Translations under genes and position numbers: made by a program
The notes under the pieces: generated by a model
Told to the model about the DNA's origin: nothing
Seen by the model: the letters and a program-made list of their open reading frames with translations, nothing else
Database searches by the model: none
In this document: positions 32,456 to 41,134 of the stretch, one piece after another
Layout: each line of letters starts with the position of its first letter
How positions within the stretch are numbered: the first letter of the stretch is position 1
From: Lignipirellula cremea
GTDB taxonomy: Bacteria; Planctomycetota; Planctomycetia; Pirellulales; Pirellulaceae
Direction of reading: 5' to 3'
DNA length: 64,000 nucleotides
Assembly (NCBI RefSeq): GCF_007751035.1
Contig: NZ_CP036433.1
Location: 3,515,001-3,579,000, forward strand

Positions 32456-33061
32456 ATGGATACTTATTTAGTCTGGGCGGTACTGCTGGTCTTTCTGGGG
32501 CTTTTTCTGCTGGTGGCGGAGTTCTTTATTCCGTCGGCGGGCTCGATTAGCATCCTGGCGCTGCTGGCGTTTCTGGCGGCCGTATTTTTTGGATTCCGCG
32601 TGAGTGCGGTCGCAGGACTTTTGATTCTAATCTTTGAATCGCTGGCGGCGCCGTTTCTGTTTTACATCGGCGTGCGGATCTGGCCGTCGTCCCCGATGGG
32701 ACGGTTGATGTTGATCCCGCGCCCCGTGCATCCCGACGCCATGCTGCCGCAAAGCGAAGCGTATCACCGGCGGGACCTGGTTGGTAAACTAGGGATCGCC
32801 AAAACGAAGATGCTGCCCAGCGGCTCGATCCTGGTCGAAGGCCGCACCTATGACGCTAGCGCTCAGGGAGTCGCCATTGAGGCCGGTCAGGCCGTCCGGG
32901 TAACGGCGGTAAACGGGAATCGACTGCAGGTGCGGCCGAGCGACGAACGGCCGGAGTCGCCCGCTCCGGCGCCGCTGGGCCCCGAGGCTTCGGAGGAAGA
33001 GATTTTGTCGCAGCCGCTGGAAAACCTTGACCTGGAAGCACTCGACGACCCGTTGGCTTGA
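32456..33061 (+). CDS. Short NfeD family protein
   Basis: A 201-residue protein with three N-terminal membrane helices (about residues 5-28, 30-50 and 52-78) and a C-terminal OB-fold NfeD domain (LVGKLGIAKTKMLPSGSILVEG). It ends with an acidic tail. It is the protease-free class of NfeD that pairs with flotillins. It lies between the long NfeD gene (112 bases upstream) and floA (99 bases downstream) on the same strand. This order matches the yqeZ-yqfB/floA type of cluster in other bacteria. Confidence 0.85.
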   Translation: MDTYLVWAVLLVFLGLFLLVAEFFIPSAGSISILALLAFLAAVFFGFRVSAVAGLLILIFESLAAPFLFYIGVRIWPSSPMGRLMLIPRPVHPDAMLPQSEAYHRRDLVGKLGIAKTKMLPSGSILVEGRTYDASAQGVAIEAGQAVRVTAVNGNRLQVRPSDERPESPAPAPLGPEASEEEILSQPLENLDLEALDDPLA

Positions 33062-33160
33062 CAACCGCCAGAGGGTGGGATAAACCACTCTTGCACCAAA
33101 CACTGCCGCGCCTCCTTTGAAAAAGAATCTCGGCGCCTCCCTTCTTAATGTGGGCCGACA

Positions 33161-34177
33161 ATGGACAACGAAATCGTCGTCGTAGGAATCCTGATGGCCG
33201 GCTTTGTCGGCCTGTTAGTCGGTTTGATCGTGCTGGGCGTCATCGCCAGCTACTTCCGACTGTGGGTTCGCTCTTATTTAACGGGCGCAGGGATTGGGAT
33301 TTTTGACCTGATCGGCATGTCGTTTCGTAAGGTCCGGGCGTCGCAAATTGTGCAAAGCAAAATCATGGCGGTGCAGGCCGGCCTGACCGATCCTGACATT
33401 ACGACCAAAGCGCTCGAGGCCCATTACCTGTCGCAAGGGAACGTGCCGCTGGTGATTCGGGCGTTGATCGCCGCCAACAAAGCGAAGATCATCAATCTCA
33501 CCTTCCGCGAAGCGACTGCCATCGACCTCGCCGGCCGTAACGTGCTGGAAGCGGTGCAGACCAGCGTTTATCCCAAAGTCATCGACTGCCCCGGCAGGGC
33601 CTCTGGTCGTGAGTCGCTGGACGCCGTCGCGAAAGACGGTATCCAACTCAAGGTGAAGGCCCGCGTCACCGTGCGAGCGAACCTGCAGCAGTTGATCGGC
33701 GGCGCCACCGAGGAAACAATCGTCGCCCGCGTGGGCGAAGGCATCGTGAGTGCCATCGGTTCCGCCGATTCGCACAGCCAGGTTCTGGAAAACCCGGACA
33801 TGATCTCCCGCGCCGTGCTCTCTCGCCGGCTGGATTCGCAAACGGCGTTTGAAATCGTTTCGATCGACATCGCCGATATCGACGTGGGCGAGAACATCGG
33901 CGCCCGACTGCAGGCCGACCAGGCCGAAGCCGACCTTCGCGTCGCCCGCGCCGCTGCTGAAGGCCGCCGAGCCCGGGCCGTAGCGACGGAACAGGAACGG
34001 GTCGCCGAGATTGAAGCCAGCCGCGCCATGCTGGTCGAGGCCGAAGCCGAAGTGCCGAAAGCGATGGCCGAAGCGTTCGAGACGGGCAAGCTGGGAATTC
34101 TCGACTACTACAAAATGCGGAACATCCAGGCTGACACCGACATGCGGAAGACGATCGCCACGTCGGGAGGCCGCTAA
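33161..34177 (+). CDS. floA: Flotillin-like protein FloA
   Basis: A 338-residue membrane-microdomain scaffold (UPF0365 family). A single N-terminal membrane hairpin ([20 protein letters not shown]) is followed by the FloA core: [13 protein letters not shown], then [17 protein letters not shown]. The SPFH/band-7 region reads [21 protein letters not shown]. The C-terminal Ala/Glu-rich coiled coil ([20 protein letters not shown]) mediates oligomerisation. Length is normal. FloA assembles lipid-raft-like domains and works with NfeD proteins, both of which are encoded immediately upstream. Its stop codon overlaps the start codon of the next gene by one base. Confidence 0.95.
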
Positions 34178-35104: not shown

Positions 35105-35420
35105 CGGGTTTTGAACTCTGCGAACGAACGAAGAAGTGGCGACTTTCGACGAACCAGGCAATTGTCACCCTGGAGTCGCCCTGGAGTCGCCTGGAAATGG
35201 CGGGCGCTGCCAGCAAAGCAGAGCCGCCGCGTCTTTTCAATGTACCGCAGGCGAGCCGTTTTAGGAATTGCCTGGCCAGCGGGACGCAGATTTCGCCAGG
35301 ACGAGAAATCGGCGAGCGCCGGGCCATTTTTTGCGAGGAAAGGTTTCAATTCGGTCCGCGGGCGGTCTATGATGACCGGACATCGATGCCAAGAATTCCG
35401 TTCCGGTTGGGGAGGTGTGC

Positions 35421-36797
35421 GTGGTTATTCGTCTTGTGATTGCTTGCTGGGTCGGTCTGTTGTGGGTTCCCGCGCTGGCTGCGGCCGATACCTGGCGCAG
35501 TGGTGTCGCTAAAGCGGTGATCACTCCGGCCAAACCGATGTACATGGCCGGGTACGCCGGACGCGACCATCCCGCGGAAGGTAAGTTGACCGAACTATGG
35601 GCCAAAGCGCTCGCCATCAGCGCGGGCGACGAACCAGCCGCCCTGCTGGTGACGCTGGACCTGGTCGGCATCGATCGCGAACTGGCTCTGGGCATTCGCA
35701 CCCGTCTGCAGGAGAAGCATCGCCTGCCGCTGGCGAACATTGTGCTGTGCACGTCGCACACGCATACGGGGCCGATCGTGGCGAAAAACCTGCGGCCGAT
35801 GCATTATCTGCTCCTCGACAAACATCAGCAGAAACAGGTCGACGATTATGCCGACTTCCTGGCGGATACCGTGGTGCGGATCGGCGGCGAAGCGCTCGCG
35901 AACCTGGCGCCAGCCGAACTGGCCTGGGGAGAAGGAAGGGCGGACTTTGCGGTCAACCGGCGGAACAATCCGGCGGCAGAGGTGCCGACGTTACGGGCGG
36001 AGGGCCGCCTGCGCGGTCCCTTCGATCATGCAGTCCCTGTGCTGACGGTGCGGAACGACCAGGGCGACATGCAGGCGATCGTGTTCGGCTATGCGTGCCA
36101 TGCCACGGTGCTCAACAGTTATCGCTGGTCGGGCGACTATCCGGGCTTTGCCCAGATCGACCTGGAGAAGAACCATCCCGGTTGCCAGGCGATGTTCTGG
36201 GCTGGCTGCGGGGCCGATCAGAATCCCTTGCCCCGCCGCACCACGGAGCTTGCCGAGCAATACGGCAAGGCTCTGGCCGTTGCGGTCGAGTCGGTGATCG
36301 ACGGGAAACTGCAGCCGCTGCCGGCCCGTTTTTCCAGTCGCTACCGCGAGGAGCCGCTGGCACTGGCGAAACTGCCCACGCGTGAAGAGCTGATCGAGGC
36401 GGCCGCTTCCAAGGATCGCTTCGTTGCTTCCCGGGCTCGCGCCCATCTGCAGCAACTGGACGACGGCAAAAGCCTGCTGGCGAAGTACCCCTACCCGATC
36501 CAGTCCTGGCGACTGGGCGACAAGCTGCAGTGGGTTTTCCTGGGAGGCGAGGTGGTGGTCGACTTTGCGCTGCGGATCCGCTCGGAATCGGCGGGGCCCG
36601 TCTGGATCGCCGCGTACAGCAACGATGTGATGGCTTATATCCCTTCGTTACGGGTGCTGCGTGAAGGCGGCTATGAAGGCGCCAGCGCGATGATTTATTA
36701 TGGACTGCCTGGCGTATGGGCGGAGACGGTCGAAGAAACGATTGTGAAAGAAGTCGCCCGCCAGTCGGCCGACCTGCAGCCAGCCGTCTCCCCGTGA
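35421..36797 (+). CDS. Exported neutral/alkaline ceramidase-like protein
   Basis: A 458-residue protein with a signal peptide (VIRLVIACWVGLLWVPALA). It matches the neutral/alkaline non-lysosomal ceramidase family: VAKAVITPAKPMYMAGYAGR, then CTSHTHTGP with the zinc-binding His pair, and GYACHATVL further on. WAGCGADQNP is another conserved segment. Members of this family in planctomycetes are numerous and their true substrate is often unknown. I chose the GTG at 35421 because GGGGAGG lies about five bases upstream; a GTG two codons earlier is also possible. It lies 22 bases ahead of the JAB gene on the same strand, so it may share that transcript. Confidence 0.85.
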   Translation: MVIRLVIACWVGLLWVPALAAADTWRSGVAKAVITPAKPMYMAGYAGRDHPAEGKLTELWAKALAISAGDEPAALLVTLDLVGIDRELALGIRTRLQEKHRLPLANIVLCTSHTHTGPIVAKNLRPMHYLLLDKHQQKQVDDYADFLADTVVRIGGEALANLAPAELAWGEGRADFAVNRRNNPAAEVPTLRAEGRLRGPFDHAVPVLTVRNDQGDMQAIVFGYACHATVLNSYRWSGDYPGFAQIDLEKNHPGCQAMFWAGCGADQNPLPRRTTELAEQYGKALAVAVESVIDGKLQPLPARFSSRYREEPLALAKLPTREELIEAAASKDRFVASRARAHLQQLDDGKSLLAKYPYPIQSWRLGDKLQWVFLGGEVVVDFALRIRSESAGPVWIAAYSNDVMAYIPSLRVLREGGYEGASAMIYYGLPGVWAETVEETIVKEVARQSADLQPAVSP

Positions 36798-36819: not shown

Positions 36820-38256
36820 ATGGATGACGACATCCAGTTTGGCGAGATTGAAGAAAGCTCGCCCGGGCAGCACCTTCGTCCCGACCGCAACAAGCATTTT
36901 GCGGTCGTCGGGTATGAAGAGCCGCGCGAAGGCGAGCTGCCGATCTTTGTCGATCTCGACGTGATGCGCGATATGGAAACCCACGCCCAGAGCGACACCA
37001 GCGTCGAGCTGGGCGGCGTGCTGCTGGGCGGCCAGTATGAGGACGAAGATGGTCAGCCCTTTGTGATGATCACCGACAGCTTGCGGGCCGAACATTACGA
37101 AGCGACCAAAGGCAGTTTCAAATTCACCCACGACACGTGGGAGCAGATCACGCGGGAACGGGAAGATTTTCCGCCCGAGCTGCAGATGGTTGGCTGGTAC
37201 CACACGCACCCGGACTGGGGCGTGTTCTTGTCGGGGATGGATATGTTCATCTGCGACAATTTCTTTAATCGCCCGCTCGATGTCGCCCTGGTGATTGACC
37301 CGTGCCGCGGGGATCGGGGGATGTTCCAGTGGACGGGCGACCCGCGGGAGCGGGTGCGCAGGACACGTGGATTTTATTTGATCAGCTCGCGATTTCGCCG
37401 CGAGGAACTGGAAGAGTTTGCCCAACTCCTCGAGGGAAAAATCAACATGGCTGCTGAATCTCGCTCCCGCAGCGGATCTGGTTTCTCGTCGTCGAACGCT
37501 CCGGTGGTGCATATCACGCAGCCTTCCAGCGGGCCGCAGTACCTGGCCGTGCTCGCCCTGATGACGGTGCAGTTTGCTGTGCTGGCATTGCTCGCCTGGC
37601 AGTTGCTCAAGGCGCCCGCCGGGGCTCCAGAGACCGCACAGGAGAAGCAGATTGCCGCCTGGAACGAGCGGCTGGATCAATTGGAGAGCCGGCGGGCCGA
37701 GGCCGAAAAAATCGAAACCCAGCTGCAGGTCTTGCGTCAGGTAATGGACAATCTGTCCGACGAACCGGCCCTGGTGCAATCGCTGGAGAGGCTGCGCCAG
37801 GAGAACGCGCGGCTGGAAAGCCAGTCGTTTGATCGGGTGGCGGCCGAACGACAGAACCGGTCGGATCAGGAGCGTCTGGCGGTGTCGCTTGAAACGGCCC
37901 GGACCGATATCGCGCGATTAAACGGCCGGCTCAAAGATAAAAGCGATGACATCGCGGCAGGGGAGGCCAAACGGGTGAAACTGCTCGGCGAAATGGCCGT
38001 CATGAAGAAGGAACTGGCCCAGAAGAAAGCCGACGAAACGGGCTTCAGCCAGACGTTCTGGTGGATCCTGGGGGGGGTGGTGCTGCTGTTCTTCGGCGTC
38101 CTGGGCGTCATGGTATGGATGCGGCCCGATGACAGCGAACCGGACAAAAAAGATCCGGCGACCGGCAAGGAATCGTCCCCGCCAGCGAATAACTCCCGAG
38201 AAGGCGAATCCCCTGCCGACGAAACGTCGTCGGGTGATCGTCCGTCGCCGGAATAG
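36820..38256 (+). CDS. Membrane-anchored JAB/MPN (JAMM) metallopeptidase
   Basis: A 478-residue protein. The N-terminal JAB domain has a complete JAMM motif: a Glu in VELGGVLLGG, then HTHPDWGVFLSGMD, which fits HxHx7SxxD exactly, so zinc-dependent isopeptidase activity is plausible. A first membrane helix lies at about residues 245-268 (LAVLALMTVQFAVLALLAW). A coiled coil of about 150 residues follows, then a second membrane helix (WWILGGVVLLFFGVLGVMVW) and an acidic Pro/Ser tail. It is the first gene of a cluster with an E2-like and a RING gene. A TTG four codons upstream (36808) is an alternative start. JAMM enzymes remove ubiquitin-like modifiers or cut peptides; the substrate here is unknown. 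Confidence 0.88.
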   Translation: MDDDIQFGEIEESSPGQHLRPDRNKHFAVVGYEEPREGELPIFVDLDVMRDMETHAQSDTSVELGGVLLGGQYEDEDGQPFVMITDSLRAEHYEATKGSFKFTHDTWEQITREREDFPPELQMVGWYHTHPDWGVFLSGMDMFICDNFFNRPLDVALVIDPCRGDRGMFQWTGDPRERVRRTRGFYLISSRFRREELEEFAQLLEGKINMAAESRSRSGSGFSSSNAPVVHITQPSSGPQYLAVLALMTVQFAVLALLAWQLLKAPAGAPETAQEKQIAAWNERLDQLESRRAEAEKIETQLQVLRQVMDNLSDEPALVQSLERLRQENARLESQSFDRVAAERQNRSDQERLAVSLETARTDIARLNGRLKDKSDDIAAGEAKRVKLLGEMAVMKKELAQKKADETGFSQTFWWILGGVVLLFFGVLGVMVWMRPDDSEPDKKDPATGKESSPPANNSREGESPADETSSGDRPSPE

Positions 38257-38332
38257 TCGGTAGACCATTTCGTGCCGCGGGGAAGTGGATGCTGCCATCC
38301 CAATGGCGAAGCGCCTGATGGAGAGATAAACG

Positions 38333-39217
38333 ATGGAAACGACTGCACGGAACGATCGCCTGACGAGCGACCTGGCGGCCGTGCGGAAGCTGCACCGCAT
38401 GAGCAGCCTGTTCGAATTTGAAACGGCCGGCTCGCCTCCGGACCGGTATGCGATCACCTTCCGGGGGAAGGGCGTGCGTCCGGCCAGCGGTTCACGCACC
38501 GCTGGCGAACTGGCCGATCTGCACCGGGTGGATGTGCGGTTGCCGCAAAGCTATCCCGATCGGCCGCCCGATATCCGCTGGATCACTCCGCTGTTTCACC
38601 CCAACGTTTCCTTCGGCGGTTTCCTGGATCTGCAGCATGCAGGCTTGCCATGGGAAGCGGATTTAACACTGGATATTGTGGTGGAGCGGTTGTGGGATGT
38701 GCTGCGCCTGGCGTATTTTGACCTGGATCTGGCAACCAACTTTACCGCCCGGCAGTGGTATCTGGATGGCTGTGCGTTGCGGTTGCCGACCGACCTGCGT
38801 CCCTTGCGGGACAAGGCGCCTGTCGTGAGCGAGAACATTATTCGTTACGACCGGAAAGGGAGCGAGCCGCGGCAAGGGCCCGTTTCCCGCGCTACGATCG
38901 AGATCGACGAAAGCACGCCGCTGGCCCCGCCTGTCGTCCCTCTTCCTCCGCGACCCGAGCTATTTTACATCGGCGACGAGCCGCCCGAAGCGGCGTCTGC
39001 TTCTGGTATGCAGATGGACTCGATGGTGGAGGTGAACCAGGTCCGCGCCGCGCGACCAGAAATTGACCTGGACCCGGCGCCCGAGGCGACGGCCCCAGCC
39101 GCCGATGAAACGACGAGCGCAACGCGTTCCGTAGATTCCCCAGCAGCGGAGTCCGGCCCCCCGGCCGGTAGTTCAAGCGACAACGACGACGATATTCTTT
39201 ATATTGGATGGGATTGA
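38333..39217 (+). CDS. E2 (ubiquitin-conjugating)-like fold protein lacking the usual active-site Cys
   Basis: A 294-residue protein. Residues about 20-130 match an E2/UBC core: SYPDRPPDIRW (73-83) is the YPxxPP segment, HPN (89-91) is the hallmark turn, and PWEADLTLDIVVERLWDVL is the post-active-site helix. The active-site Cys normally found six to ten residues after HPN is missing; the site reads SFGGFLDLQ. The only Cys in the protein is Cys147. The C-terminal 110 residues are Pro- and acid-rich and contain two copies of a short motif, ELFYIGDE and DILYIGWD, the second at the extreme C-terminus. It has a good ribosome binding site (GGAGAG). The placement between JAB and RING genes supports the E2 reading. 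Confidence 0.75.
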   Translation: METTARNDRLTSDLAAVRKLHRMSSLFEFETAGSPPDRYAITFRGKGVRPASGSRTAGELADLHRVDVRLPQSYPDRPPDIRWITPLFHPNVSFGGFLDLQHAGLPWEADLTLDIVVERLWDVLRLAYFDLDLATNFTARQWYLDGCALRLPTDLRPLRDKAPVVSENIIRYDRKGSEPRQGPVSRATIEIDESTPLAPPVVPLPPRPELFYIGDEPPEAASASGMQMDSMVEVNQVRAARPEIDLDPAPEATAPAADETTSATRSVDSPAAESGPPAGSSSDNDDDILYIGWD

Positions 39218-39284
39218 AGCCCGTGCCCGGAGCGCGGGTCGCTCTTCCTTTTTCAACGGCGAATCGGTCGCCAAGGCGTTGGCA

Positions 39285-40106
39285 GTGGAATGCCTTTTTG
39301 TATTTTTCCTGTTCCTCGTGGTGCTGGCGGTGATAGCCGCCTATGGAGCCGTTTCGCAATCCAAAGCGGACCGCATCAATAGCATCTATCGCAACCTGGC
39401 GGTGCGGTTTCGGGGGCATCATACTTCGCCGGGCTGGTTCCGCCGGCCTTCGGTGCGCTTTCGCTATGGTTCCACGCATGTGATGCTCTCGACCGTTTCC
39501 CCCTACGGCAAACGCGGGCCCGAGTATACCCAGGCGATGATCAGCTGGCCCGACCATTCGCTGCAGGCGGAGATCTTTCCCAGCCGCATGTCGCCATTCC
39601 AGCCGCAGCAGATTTCCGACGAATTTGCCTGCGGCTCGCAGCAATTCGCCAGTGATTACGTTGTCAGGGCGAACGACCATCCCGCGATGGAAAGGTTCCT
39701 GAGCGAAGGGGTGCAGTGGCAAATTAATCGCCTGCGCCGGATCGAGCACTCCGACGAAGTCCACCTGCACCTGTATCGTGGCCGGCTGATCGTTCGCAAA
39801 ATGGCGAAACTTGCGCAGTACAACCAGCTGGAAGACTTTCTCTCCATGTGCCTGGAGCTGTACGATCAGGCGATGCTCACCCGCGTCGTCGGCATTTCCT
39901 TTATTGAGCCGACGCCTTCTTCCGACATTCCCGAGCCGGAATGCCAGGTGTGCGGCGACGCCATTTGTACGGACATGGTTTTTTGCCGTCGCTGCCAGAC
40001 GCCGCATCACCTGGAATGCTGGCAGTATTTCGGCGAGTGCTCCGTTTACGGCTGCGGAGAAAAACGCTGCGTCGCGCCGAATGTTGTTGGCCCGACGAAA
40101 CCTTAG
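39285..40106 (+). CDS. Membrane-anchored prokaryotic RING-type zinc finger protein
   Basis: About 273 residues from a GTG at 39285. An N-terminal membrane helix (CLFVFFLFLVVLAVIAAYG) leads to a central domain of about 190 residues that I do not recognise. A C-terminal RING-like finger (DNA 39942-40070) has CQVC, FCRRC, HHLEC, and CSVYGC then KRC. This matches the prokaryotic RING family 1 layout, which is predicted to act like an E3 ligase or a binding module. A TTG at 39204 gives a longer version that overlaps the E2-like gene by 14 bases; I favour GTG because AAGG lies eight bases upstream. The gene follows the E2-like gene directly. Confidence 0.78.
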   Translation: MECLFVFFLFLVVLAVIAAYGAVSQSKADRINSIYRNLAVRFRGHHTSPGWFRRPSVRFRYGSTHVMLSTVSPYGKRGPEYTQAMISWPDHSLQAEIFPSRMSPFQPQQISDEFACGSQQFASDYVVRANDHPAMERFLSEGVQWQINRLRRIEHSDEVHLHLYRGRLIVRKMAKLAQYNQLEDFLSMCLELYDQAMLTRVVGISFIEPTPSSDIPEPECQVCGDAICTDMVFCRRCQTPHHLECWQYFGECSVYGCGEKRCVAPNVVGPTKP

Positions 40107-40152: not shown

Positions 40153-41070
40153 TTATGGCGAGGCGGGGCCGCGCCAGGCATAACGCTGGGTGCAGGCGAT
40201 TGTGGCTGCGTGGATCTCGACGATGTCGCTGATATCGGGCGCGTATCCGCCCGCCATCACGACGGCGACGGCGATATTCTGCGCGGCCAGCGCGGTCAGC
40301 ACCCGGCGGTCCCGCTCCCGCAGTCCGTCCCGGGTCAGGGACATGCGGCCATAGCGATCCGTGGCGAAGGGGTCGGCGCCGGACACGTAAACCGCCAGAT
40401 CGAAAGGCCCGGCGGCCAGCACCTGGGGCAATGCCGCATCCAGGGCGCCAAGGTAGTCGTCGTCGCCAGTGCCATCGGGCAAAGGCACGTCGAGATCGCT
40501 GGGCGACTTTCTCAGCGGGAAGTTTTTCGCCCCGTGCATGGAAAAGGTGAACACGCTCGAATCGTGCTCGAAAATGGCGGCCGTACCGTTTCCCTGGTGG
40601 ACGTCGCAATCGATCACCACGGCCCGCTCGATGCTTCCCTCTTGCTGCAGCACGCGGATCGCAACGGCGGCGTCGTTGAACACGCAGAAGCCTTCACCGC
40701 AGTCGGGCTGGGCATGATGGGTCCCGCCGGCCAGGTTCACGGCGGCTCCTTCGACCAGGGCTGTACGCGCCGCCTCGACGGTGGCTCCTACGGAACGGCG
40801 GGAGCGTTCGATCAGTTCGAGCGACCAGGGAAATCCGATCCGCCGGATCTCCGCCGACGTAAGCTGGCCGGTGGTCGCTCTGCGAACGTAGTCGGCGTGA
40901 TGGGCCAGGGTCAGCTGGTCGTCGCTGGCGGCCTGGGGGATCAGCAGTTGATAGCCGTACTCAGCGGCCTGGGCCTGGACCCGTTCCCGCAGCAGGCGGT
41001 ACTTGGCCATGGGGAAGCGGTGCTTGTCGGGCAGCGGCAATTCAAACAGATCGGTGGAGTAAAGTCGCAT
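40153..41070 (-). CDS. Histone-deacetylase-fold amidohydrolase
   Basis: A 305-residue class of zinc deacetylase. The catalytic His pair lies in GGTHHAQPDCGEGFCVFND, the zinc ligands are DCDVHQGNGT and SGADPFATD, and AGGYAPD supplies the loop with the transition-state residue position. Bacterial members act on acetylated small molecules or proteins. Length is normal. The ATG at 41070 is chosen because GGAGAAGG lies a few bases upstream. It is convergent with the RING gene, and lies downstream of RNase E/G on the same strand with a terminator between them. Confidence 0.92.
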   Translation of the reverse strand: MRLYSTDLFELPLPDKHRFPMAKYRLLRERVQAQAAEYGYQLLIPQAASDDQLTLAHHADYVRRATTGQLTSAEIRRIGFPWSLELIERSRRSVGATVEAARTALVEGAAVNLAGGTHHAQPDCGEGFCVFNDAAVAIRVLQQEGSIERAVVIDCDVHQGNGTAAIFEHDSSVFTFSMHGAKNFPLRKSPSDLDVPLPDGTGDDDYLGALDAALPQVLAAGPFDLAVYVSGADPFATDRYGRMSLTRDGLRERDRRVLTALAAQNIAVAVVMAGGYAPDISDIVEIHAATIACTQRYAWRGPASP

Positions 41071-41134
41071 GCGCCTTCTCCGCTGCGGTTGCGGGCCATG
41101 TCGCTGGGGCAAAAGTCGCTGGCGTTAAACAGAA

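Follow-up and report, generated by a model that had tools for sequence, protein, structure and literature searches.

Are a protease, an E2-like protein and a RING protein that are encoded side by side in a planctomycete genome a ubiquitin-type module of their own, or part of a larger pathway? The question is raised by three consecutive genes in a 64,000-nucleotide stretch of the Lignipirellula cremea chromosome (positions 3515001-3579000 of the single 9.565 Mb contig NZ_CP036433.1; termed the window, to which positions given without a label refer). The genes encode a membrane JAMM/JAB peptidase (membrane JAB), a protein related to ubiquitin-conjugating enzymes (E2) and a membrane-anchored RING protein. 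We consider it likely that this trio belongs, as its relocated membrane arm, to a complete planctomycete pathway for conjugation of a ubiquitin-like protein (Ubl), with the pathway core encoded at 6.10 Mb.

The trio and its core cluster

Three consecutive plus-strand open reading frames (ORFs) were confirmed in the window, in agreement with the first-pass annotation: the membrane JAB, from 36808 (TTG) or 36820 (ATG) to 38256 (Pfam JAB, 2.1e-9); the E2-like protein, termed pseudo-E2 below, at 38333-39217 (Pfam UQ_con, 8e-9); and the single-pass membrane RING protein at 39285-40106 (Pfam Prok-RING_1, 1e-8). The ORF of the last reaches back to a TTG at 39204; the GTG at 39285 is the more likely start, and the resulting N-terminus (MECLFVFF) agrees with the MEC start of several relatives.

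No ThiF or YukD gene is present in the window, and the eight ThiF and two YukD matches of the genome all fall outside it. The first-pass annotation, which had also seen neither an activating enzyme (E1) nor a modifier gene here, was right for the window; its suggestion of an incomplete system did not hold, for the genome-wide search found a cognate E1 and a YukD-type Ubl. Genes for the Ubl (Pfam YukD, 2e-16), an active E2 (L042:8026-8688; UQ_con, 1.3e-11), a soluble JAB and the E1 (L042:9305-10474; ThiF, 6.7e-55) lie together at G000:C1:6099694-6102473, on the same chromosome and about 2.5 Mb from the trio, so that the parts do not form one cluster in this genome.

For comparison, the E2-like protein was searched against 149 genomes of the family, of which 62 gave matches, and in many of these a pair of E2 homologues is separated by about 4 kb. 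Loci were taken for 48 of these 62 (the own genome and 47 relatives; 14 were left out), and hidden Markov models (HMMs) built on the first 12 systems served, along with tblastn, to draw gene maps; the soluble JABs of loci L047 and L050 were identified by tblastn and alignment. The fullest gene order is Ubl, E2, soluble JAB, E1, membrane JAB, E2-like and RING, the last in one to three copies. Among the first batch of relatives, the genes from Ubl to E2-like follow this order on one strand in 11 of 11, with RING genes after them in nine. The membrane JAB gene is downstream of the E1 gene, on the same contig and strand, in all 47 relatives; the gap is 240 bases or less in 46 of these, and 779 bases in L130, where it holds open frames of up to 219 amino acids. 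Contig ends cut the E1 gene in L128, L134 and L137, and the JAB gene in L090. Of the 32 relatives that possess a pseudo-E2 gene, 31 have it at most 335 bases downstream of the membrane JAB gene, and a RING gene comes next usually, though not always; a lack of joint conservation in relatives, which the first-pass annotation had named as a refuting result, was not found.

The trio is therefore not orphaned: E1 and modifier are encoded at 6.10 Mb of the same chromosome, in the kind of cluster that holds the trio in relatives, and their apparent lack results from the splitting of this cluster. It is probably the trio that changed place, because the core still has, ahead of its Ubl gene, the transglutaminase-like gene (so named by eye) that seven of 11 relatives have there; this gene (L042:5726-7312) has a lipobox-like start. 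A split at another place appears to occur in genome G103, a fragmented assembly, with pseudo-E2 and RING genes on one contig and the remainder inside another (L132, L133).

Variants of the cluster were also seen. The number of RING genes, which stand in tandem, ranges from one to three per cluster (L043, L049, L050 and others), and one copy is broken in L049. In the loci L105-L107 (family f80) the E1-Ubl-E2-JAB cluster has a single JAB, and no RING gene was called in its vicinity; the order in L108 is RING-Ubl-E2-E1-membrane JAB.

The cysteine-less E2 and the soluble JAB

Residues 1 to about 150 of the pseudo-E2 form an E2 fold, with the hallmark motifs YPDRPP and HPN that the first-pass annotation had pointed out. 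The AlphaFold2 (AF2) model has ten-residue block means of 91-98 in predicted local distance difference test (pLDDT) over residues 1-140; its best Foldseek match is Ubc13 (3.9e-7), and VIA-align matches it to E2s with Z of about 13-14. A sequence-profile search of the PDB also placed Ubc13 first (7.5e-11), and a variable column (Asn) of the profile aligns with a mutated position of that entry, which we take to be the catalytic one. The E2-like nature of the protein was thus upheld by structure and profile alike.

The first-pass annotation had called this E2 altered; what is missing is the active-site cysteine: HPNVSFGGFLD in the window protein stands opposite HPNISGSGVVC in its paralogue, i.e. 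Cys has been replaced by Asp. The catalytic Cys is absent from all 33 pseudo-E2 copies in the family (N13 D6 R3 S3 A2 G2 K2 E1 H1 at this place) and present in 46 of 46 paralogous E2s. An alternative catalytic Cys in the core was considered and rejected; the sole Cys in the core of the window protein, at +58 from HPN, is not near the active site, and the Cys at +28 that most relatives have is absent. With no catalytic Cys after HPN, the protein lacks the hallmark of an active E2 and resembles a ubiquitin E2 variant (UEV), in which the E2 fold is present without the Cys. UEVs such as Mms2/Uev1 and Tsg101 are encoded alongside an active E2. Retention of the fold and of HPN in nearly all copies, together with loss of the Cys, would be expected of a UEV-like role and was found; the likeness to UEVs is one of fold and sequence only, and the pseudo-E2 differs in forming a planctomycete clade of its own beside its active E2s and in its long acidic tail. 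This tail, with the motifs ELFYIG and DILYIG, is modelled at low confidence and is probably disordered. No hydrophobic membrane segment was seen in the pseudo-E2 by hydropathy.

In the tree, the 33 pseudo-E2s form one clade (support 100/99) that adjoins the cysteine E2s; the tree has four long branches, and its bootstrap is not settled. A protein of another family labelled as pseudo-E2 (L122, genome G172) groups with diverged E2s outside this clade. It has Tyr at the position of the catalytic Cys; similar E2-like proteins occur in G284 and G341, and no related E1 was found in these three genomes at E<=1e-60. The plasmid NC_019754.1 of Crinalium epipsammum PCC 9333 encodes an annotated ubiquitin-conjugating enzyme E2 with 28% identity over 48% of the query (plasmid tblastn).

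The pseudo-E2 and the soluble JAB occur together. Of the 42 systems whose locus is sufficiently visible (list compiled by hand; G060, G055, G014, G040, G009 and G072 were omitted, as a contig end hides part of the cluster), 28 have both, 13 have neither and one has the pseudo-E2 alone (G007, L142); the association is strong by Fisher's test (5e-10, not corrected for kinship). In genome-wide profile searches, each of the 13 genomes with neither contained just one E2 homologue and one JAB, and the same searches found two JABs in two control genomes with both genes. On the E1 tree, whose deep nodes are weak, the joint state changes about eight times (7-9 in bootstrap trees), compared with 11.4 times for shuffled labels (as low as observed in 5 of 500), and only three of these changes are forced by well-supported branches; L142 was counted here with the systems that have both. 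The absences are most simply read as joint losses, because the pseudo-E2 clade suggests one origin, and such joint losses would indicate a shared task of pseudo-E2 and soluble JAB.

The membrane JAB, the RING protein and the modifier

The membrane JAB has the residues expected of a JAMM/MPN+ protease (E ... H-x-H-x10-D), and all family copies, 46 membrane JABs and 28 soluble JABs, have E..GG and HTHP-x6-S-x2-D intact. An N-terminal JAB domain is followed by a hydrophobic helix (about 246-264), a coiled-coil-like stretch with weak matches to SMC-type models, and a second hydrophobic helix (about 420-438); two hydropathy peaks are seen in 38 of 46 copies. Pairwise identity is 37-62% within the 12-system set. 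The complete active site and the membrane anchors of the first and the third protein, both part of the first-pass annotation, were borne out, as was the derivation of the module from ubiquitin-type parts.

The AF2 model of the RING protein (mean pLDDT 91.8) begins with a long N-terminal helix, which hydropathy marks as the one hydrophobic segment; an alpha/beta domain spans about residues 45-202, and the RING is C-terminal. The RING gives RING/U-box matches in VIA-align (Z up to 6.1); its zinc ligands, seven Cys and a His, are invariant in 15 of 15 sequences, and across a set of 49 none of the seven Cys varies and either H or C occupies the fifth ligand position. Positively charged residues flank membrane segments preferentially on the cytoplasmic side (positive-inside rule). 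In 50 homologues K and R amount to 19 in the ten residues before the segment versus 166 in the fifteen after it; this excess and the rule together favour a cytoplasmic RING.

The middle domain matches TtfA first in VIA-align (Z 14.7, 3.1 Å over 155 residues), followed by chains of ribosome-translocon entries, 7tm3_4 (Z 11.2 over 191; model residues 1-201), 6w6l_7 (Z 9.5) and 9i78_4 (Z 9.3), which from the entries and papers we read as CCDC47; type III secretion chaperones come next (Z 7.6 and below). The CCDC47 match is weaker than that to TtfA (Foldseek E 0.036), sequence identity to either protein is 7-9%, Pfam gives no such family for the window protein, and the PDB profile search lists neither. 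As the secretion chaperones of similar fold also match, the domain may have a generic fold. The arrangement is alike as well, an N-terminal transmembrane anchor, which CCDC47 also has, being combined with a domain of the same fold. According to the available parts of the sources, mycobacterial TtfA has an N-terminal transmembrane segment and a cytoplasmic C-terminus and works with the transporter MmpL3 (PMC6593404), and CCDC47 is a multipass translocon factor of the PAT complex with a large globular cytosolic domain (PMC7505659, PMC9630114); both act with multi-pass membrane proteins (PMC6593404, PMC9630114). The C-terminus of CCDC47 is described there as a cytosolic coiled coil (PMC7505659), where the window protein has a RING instead. 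Going by the modelled fold, the RING protein may handle membrane proteins, a fold shared with TtfA and CCDC47 being in itself no evidence of function.

The modifier is the most conserved part. Mean pairwise identity within 12 systems is 85% for the Ubl, 67% for E1, 58% for E2, 56% for the soluble JAB, 49% for the pseudo-E2 and 46% for the membrane JAB; the RING protein, at 32% (10 systems), diverges fastest, as if its copies served different substrates. The Ubl contains [IM]VAG in 44 of 44 family copies; 28 end exactly in AG and the rest carry a tail, which is AAL after VAG in the own genome and could be removable by a JAB. The Ubl alone matched nothing below E 0.08 among PDB sequences.

An acidic-flanked hydrophobic motif (DILFIE, DVLYIG), which in our view resembles a SUMO-interacting motif, occurs once or twice in the low-confidence tails of both E2 types. 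In non-blind tests with 500 shuffles it was found in 45 of 46 E2s (shuffled mean 1.4, max 8) and in 30 of 33 pseudo-E2s (mean 0.6, max 3); since in pseudo-E2 it is also internal, it is not a C-terminal carboxylate signal. A related G[IL]x[FI] stretch precedes the RING in 41 of 49 sequences (shuffled mean 0.7, max 5), and could be part of the fold. The motif was also looked for at the N-terminus of E1 and discarded there, with 2 of 45 under the strict pattern and loose resemblance at most.

Proposed pathway, related systems and alternatives

Gene content, conserved order, conservation or loss of active-site residues and zinc ligands, folds, and the co-occurrence of pseudo-E2 and soluble JAB are the observations from which we infer the following biochemical steps, the topology, and that the separated halves still cooperate. 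A JAB would cut the Ubl precursor back to ...VAG by removing its short tail, and E1 would adenylate the Ubl and charge the cysteine E2. The membrane-anchored RING would then recruit, at the cytoplasmic face of the membrane, the charged E2 and, via its TtfA/CCDC47-fold domain, substrates. The pseudo-E2, which would form no thioester at the usual place, would act in a UEV-like manner and hold a Ubl (donor or acceptor), the active E2 or both, with the acidic-hydrophobic motifs of its tail as the probable contact; finally, the membrane JAB and its soluble paralogue would take the modifier off.

This kind of pathway is already known from planctomycete operons. Conjugation of YukD-like Ubls was reportedly proposed in the abstract of Burroughs, Iyer and Aravind (2011). 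Related operons of Planctomycetes, Actinobacteria and Acidobacteria are mentioned, citing Burroughs et al. 2011, in the available part of PMC4197634; these Ubl-E1-E2-JAB-RING operons share with the present system the five part types, a YukD-like Ubl (as reportedly given in the 2011 abstract), the planctomycete host and the clustered order seen in relatives. Here, in contrast, the genes are split over about 2.5 Mb, and there are a second, Cys-less E2, two JABs, one of them membrane-anchored, and a membrane RING protein with the TtfA/CCDC47 fold (compared with the same part of PMC4197634). In the literature searched, which did not include the text of Burroughs 2011 and is weak evidence in this respect, no description was found of a dead E2, of a link between such an E2 and a second JAB, of a RING protein with the TtfA/CCDC47 fold or of a split cluster, and the available parts of PMC7203096 and PMC12355090 contain nothing on planctomycete systems. 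According to the accessible text of PMC5654768, the cascade of Caldiarchaeum subterraneum, with a tailed Ubl precursor, E1, E2, a small RING protein and an Rpn11-like JAMM protease much as here, has been reconstituted biochemically, including trimming of the Ubl tail by the JAMM protease; its Ubl ends in diGly (AG here), and a pseudo-E2 or a membrane-anchored RING protein or JAB is not mentioned in that text.

Several points weigh against a complete, working pathway with the trio as its membrane arm. At its end the Ubl core has AG rather than GG, and YukD of Bacillus is reported, in the available part of PMC1779556, as not conjugated. No E2 match was obtained in 87 of the 149 family genomes, some of them incomplete, which makes the pathway an accessory one; the relatives are mostly fragmented assemblies, and the RING partner is not always adjacent, no RING gene having been called beside the pseudo-E2 gene in L045, L046, L087, L134 and L136. 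The motif patterns were defined after the sequences had been seen, and E2s and pseudo-E2s were sorted by best-scoring HMM, the pseudo-E2 model having been trained on Cys-less copies; this sorting is independently supported, because the tree puts the 33 pseudo-E2s in one clade.

The pseudo-E2 could instead be a reader that recognizes Ubl-modified membrane proteins by binding the attached Ubl and directs the soluble JAB to them, a tentative and somewhat unlikely alternative. Its co-occurrence with the soluble JAB (28 both, 13 neither, one exception) would be accounted for, and non-catalytic ubiquitin-binding UEV folds such as Tsg101 exist; its gene, however, stands between those of the membrane JAB and the RING protein, not beside that of the soluble JAB. 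More specific, and in our estimate unlikely, is tagging similar to endoplasmic-reticulum-associated degradation, in which single-pass RING ligases of the CCDC47/TtfA fold would mark multi-pass membrane proteins with the YukD-type Ubl, a dedicated bacterial UEV (the dead E2) would work with a soluble JAMM protease, and a SUMO-interaction-like motif shared by both E2 tails, the RING linker and, loosely, the E1 N-terminus would tie the parts together.

That the whole pathway is an anti-phage defence of the Bil or CBASS (cyclic-oligonucleotide-based antiphage signalling system) kind, tagging phage or membrane targets upon infection, appears unlikely. The part list is common to bacterial Ubl-type defence operons, BilABCD and CBASS Cap2/Cap3 likewise having enzymes of bacterial Ubl pathways (E1, E2, JAB), PADLOC models for JAB and E1-E2 match the JABs and the E1 (best 1.5e-20), and presence is patchy (62 of 149 family genomes). 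The PADLOC matches are, however, confined to generic E1 and JAB cores and weak coiled-coil ones, the E1-E2 models cover only a fragment of the own E1, and Ubl, E2, pseudo-E2 and RING match no model at E<=1; unlike in those systems, E1 and E2 are separate here, and a RING protein and a pseudo-E2 are present. Defence loci turn over fast, whereas very little change is seen here in the order of the genes or in the Ubl sequence.

An independent, E1-less membrane module, in which JAB, E2-like and RING proteins would serve as protease and scaffold with no conjugated modifier, would fit a window without E1 and Ubl, an E2-like protein without catalytic Cys, and a trio that stands apart in its own genome; it was rejected after the ThiF and YukD searches of the own genome and the neighbourhood comparison, and is highly improbable given the membrane JAB gene after that of E1 in 47 of 47 relatives and the core genes with conserved Ubl, E1 and E2 that the own genome retains. 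Decay of the trio after the cluster broke is scarcely credible: the trio is detached from its partners, with one RING copy versus two to three in several relatives and an E2-like protein that also lacks the common +28 Cys, but all three ORFs are open and of full length, the JAMM motif and all eight RING ligands are intact, the end branch of the window E2-like protein (0.6) is within the range of its clade, and identity to the other systems is 44.7% for the pseudo-E2 (set mean 48.9%) and 46.9% for the membrane JAB (set mean 46.4%).

Upstream of the trio, a neutral ceramidase-like gene (35415-36797, plus strand; Pfam Ceramidase_alk, 2.8e-14) possibly shares its transcript. As a part of the module this gene was rejected, with no match at E<=1e-3 in the cluster regions of the 11 relatives tested. 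Promoter-like matches near the trio are at chance level (2 found, 1.3 expected), the same scan gave 9 terminator-like matches (5.7 expected), and it was not used. A histone-deacetylase-family gene (40153-41112, minus strand; Pfam, 3.5e-53) is convergent with the RING gene, and an NfeD-like gene (by eye) and a FloA flotillin-like gene (9.6e-144) form a tandem at 32456-34177 on the plus strand, about 2.6 kb upstream of the trio.

In a sample of the phylum, the pseudo-E2 profile, whose matches include active E2s, matched 35 of 392 genomes and the E1 profile 29 of 392 (E<=1e-60); the species genome collection yielded 19 loci, all metagenome-assembled, 17 of planctomycete type by name and two named only 'bacterium'. 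A second, diverged Ubl system of the own genome (G000) is also in pieces: a YukD-like Ubl ending ...PEITAG (L171:6759-7028; 8.1528 Mb), just upstream of a gene that looks flhA-like by eye, E1 and JAB (L143:7425-9598; 1.534 Mb), and RING and cysteine E2 (L054:8135-9745; 1.097 Mb). Other planctomycetes (L117-L121, L123, L124) have related Ubl, E1, JAB and E2 genes within about 5-11 kb, with a RING gene called in most.

If the trio is the membrane arm of a conjugation pathway, planctomycetes would hold a multi-component Ubl pathway with features usually deemed eukaryotic: conservation much stronger in the modifier than in its enzymes, a dead E2 paralogue maintained next to the active E2, clusters that in relatives encode as many as three RING proteins, and a membrane-anchored writer and eraser. 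The pathway would then be a tractable place to ask how UEVs originated and what bacteria tag at the membrane, and the split copy of L. cremea, which resolves the apparent orphan, would provide a natural test of a membrane arm working in trans.

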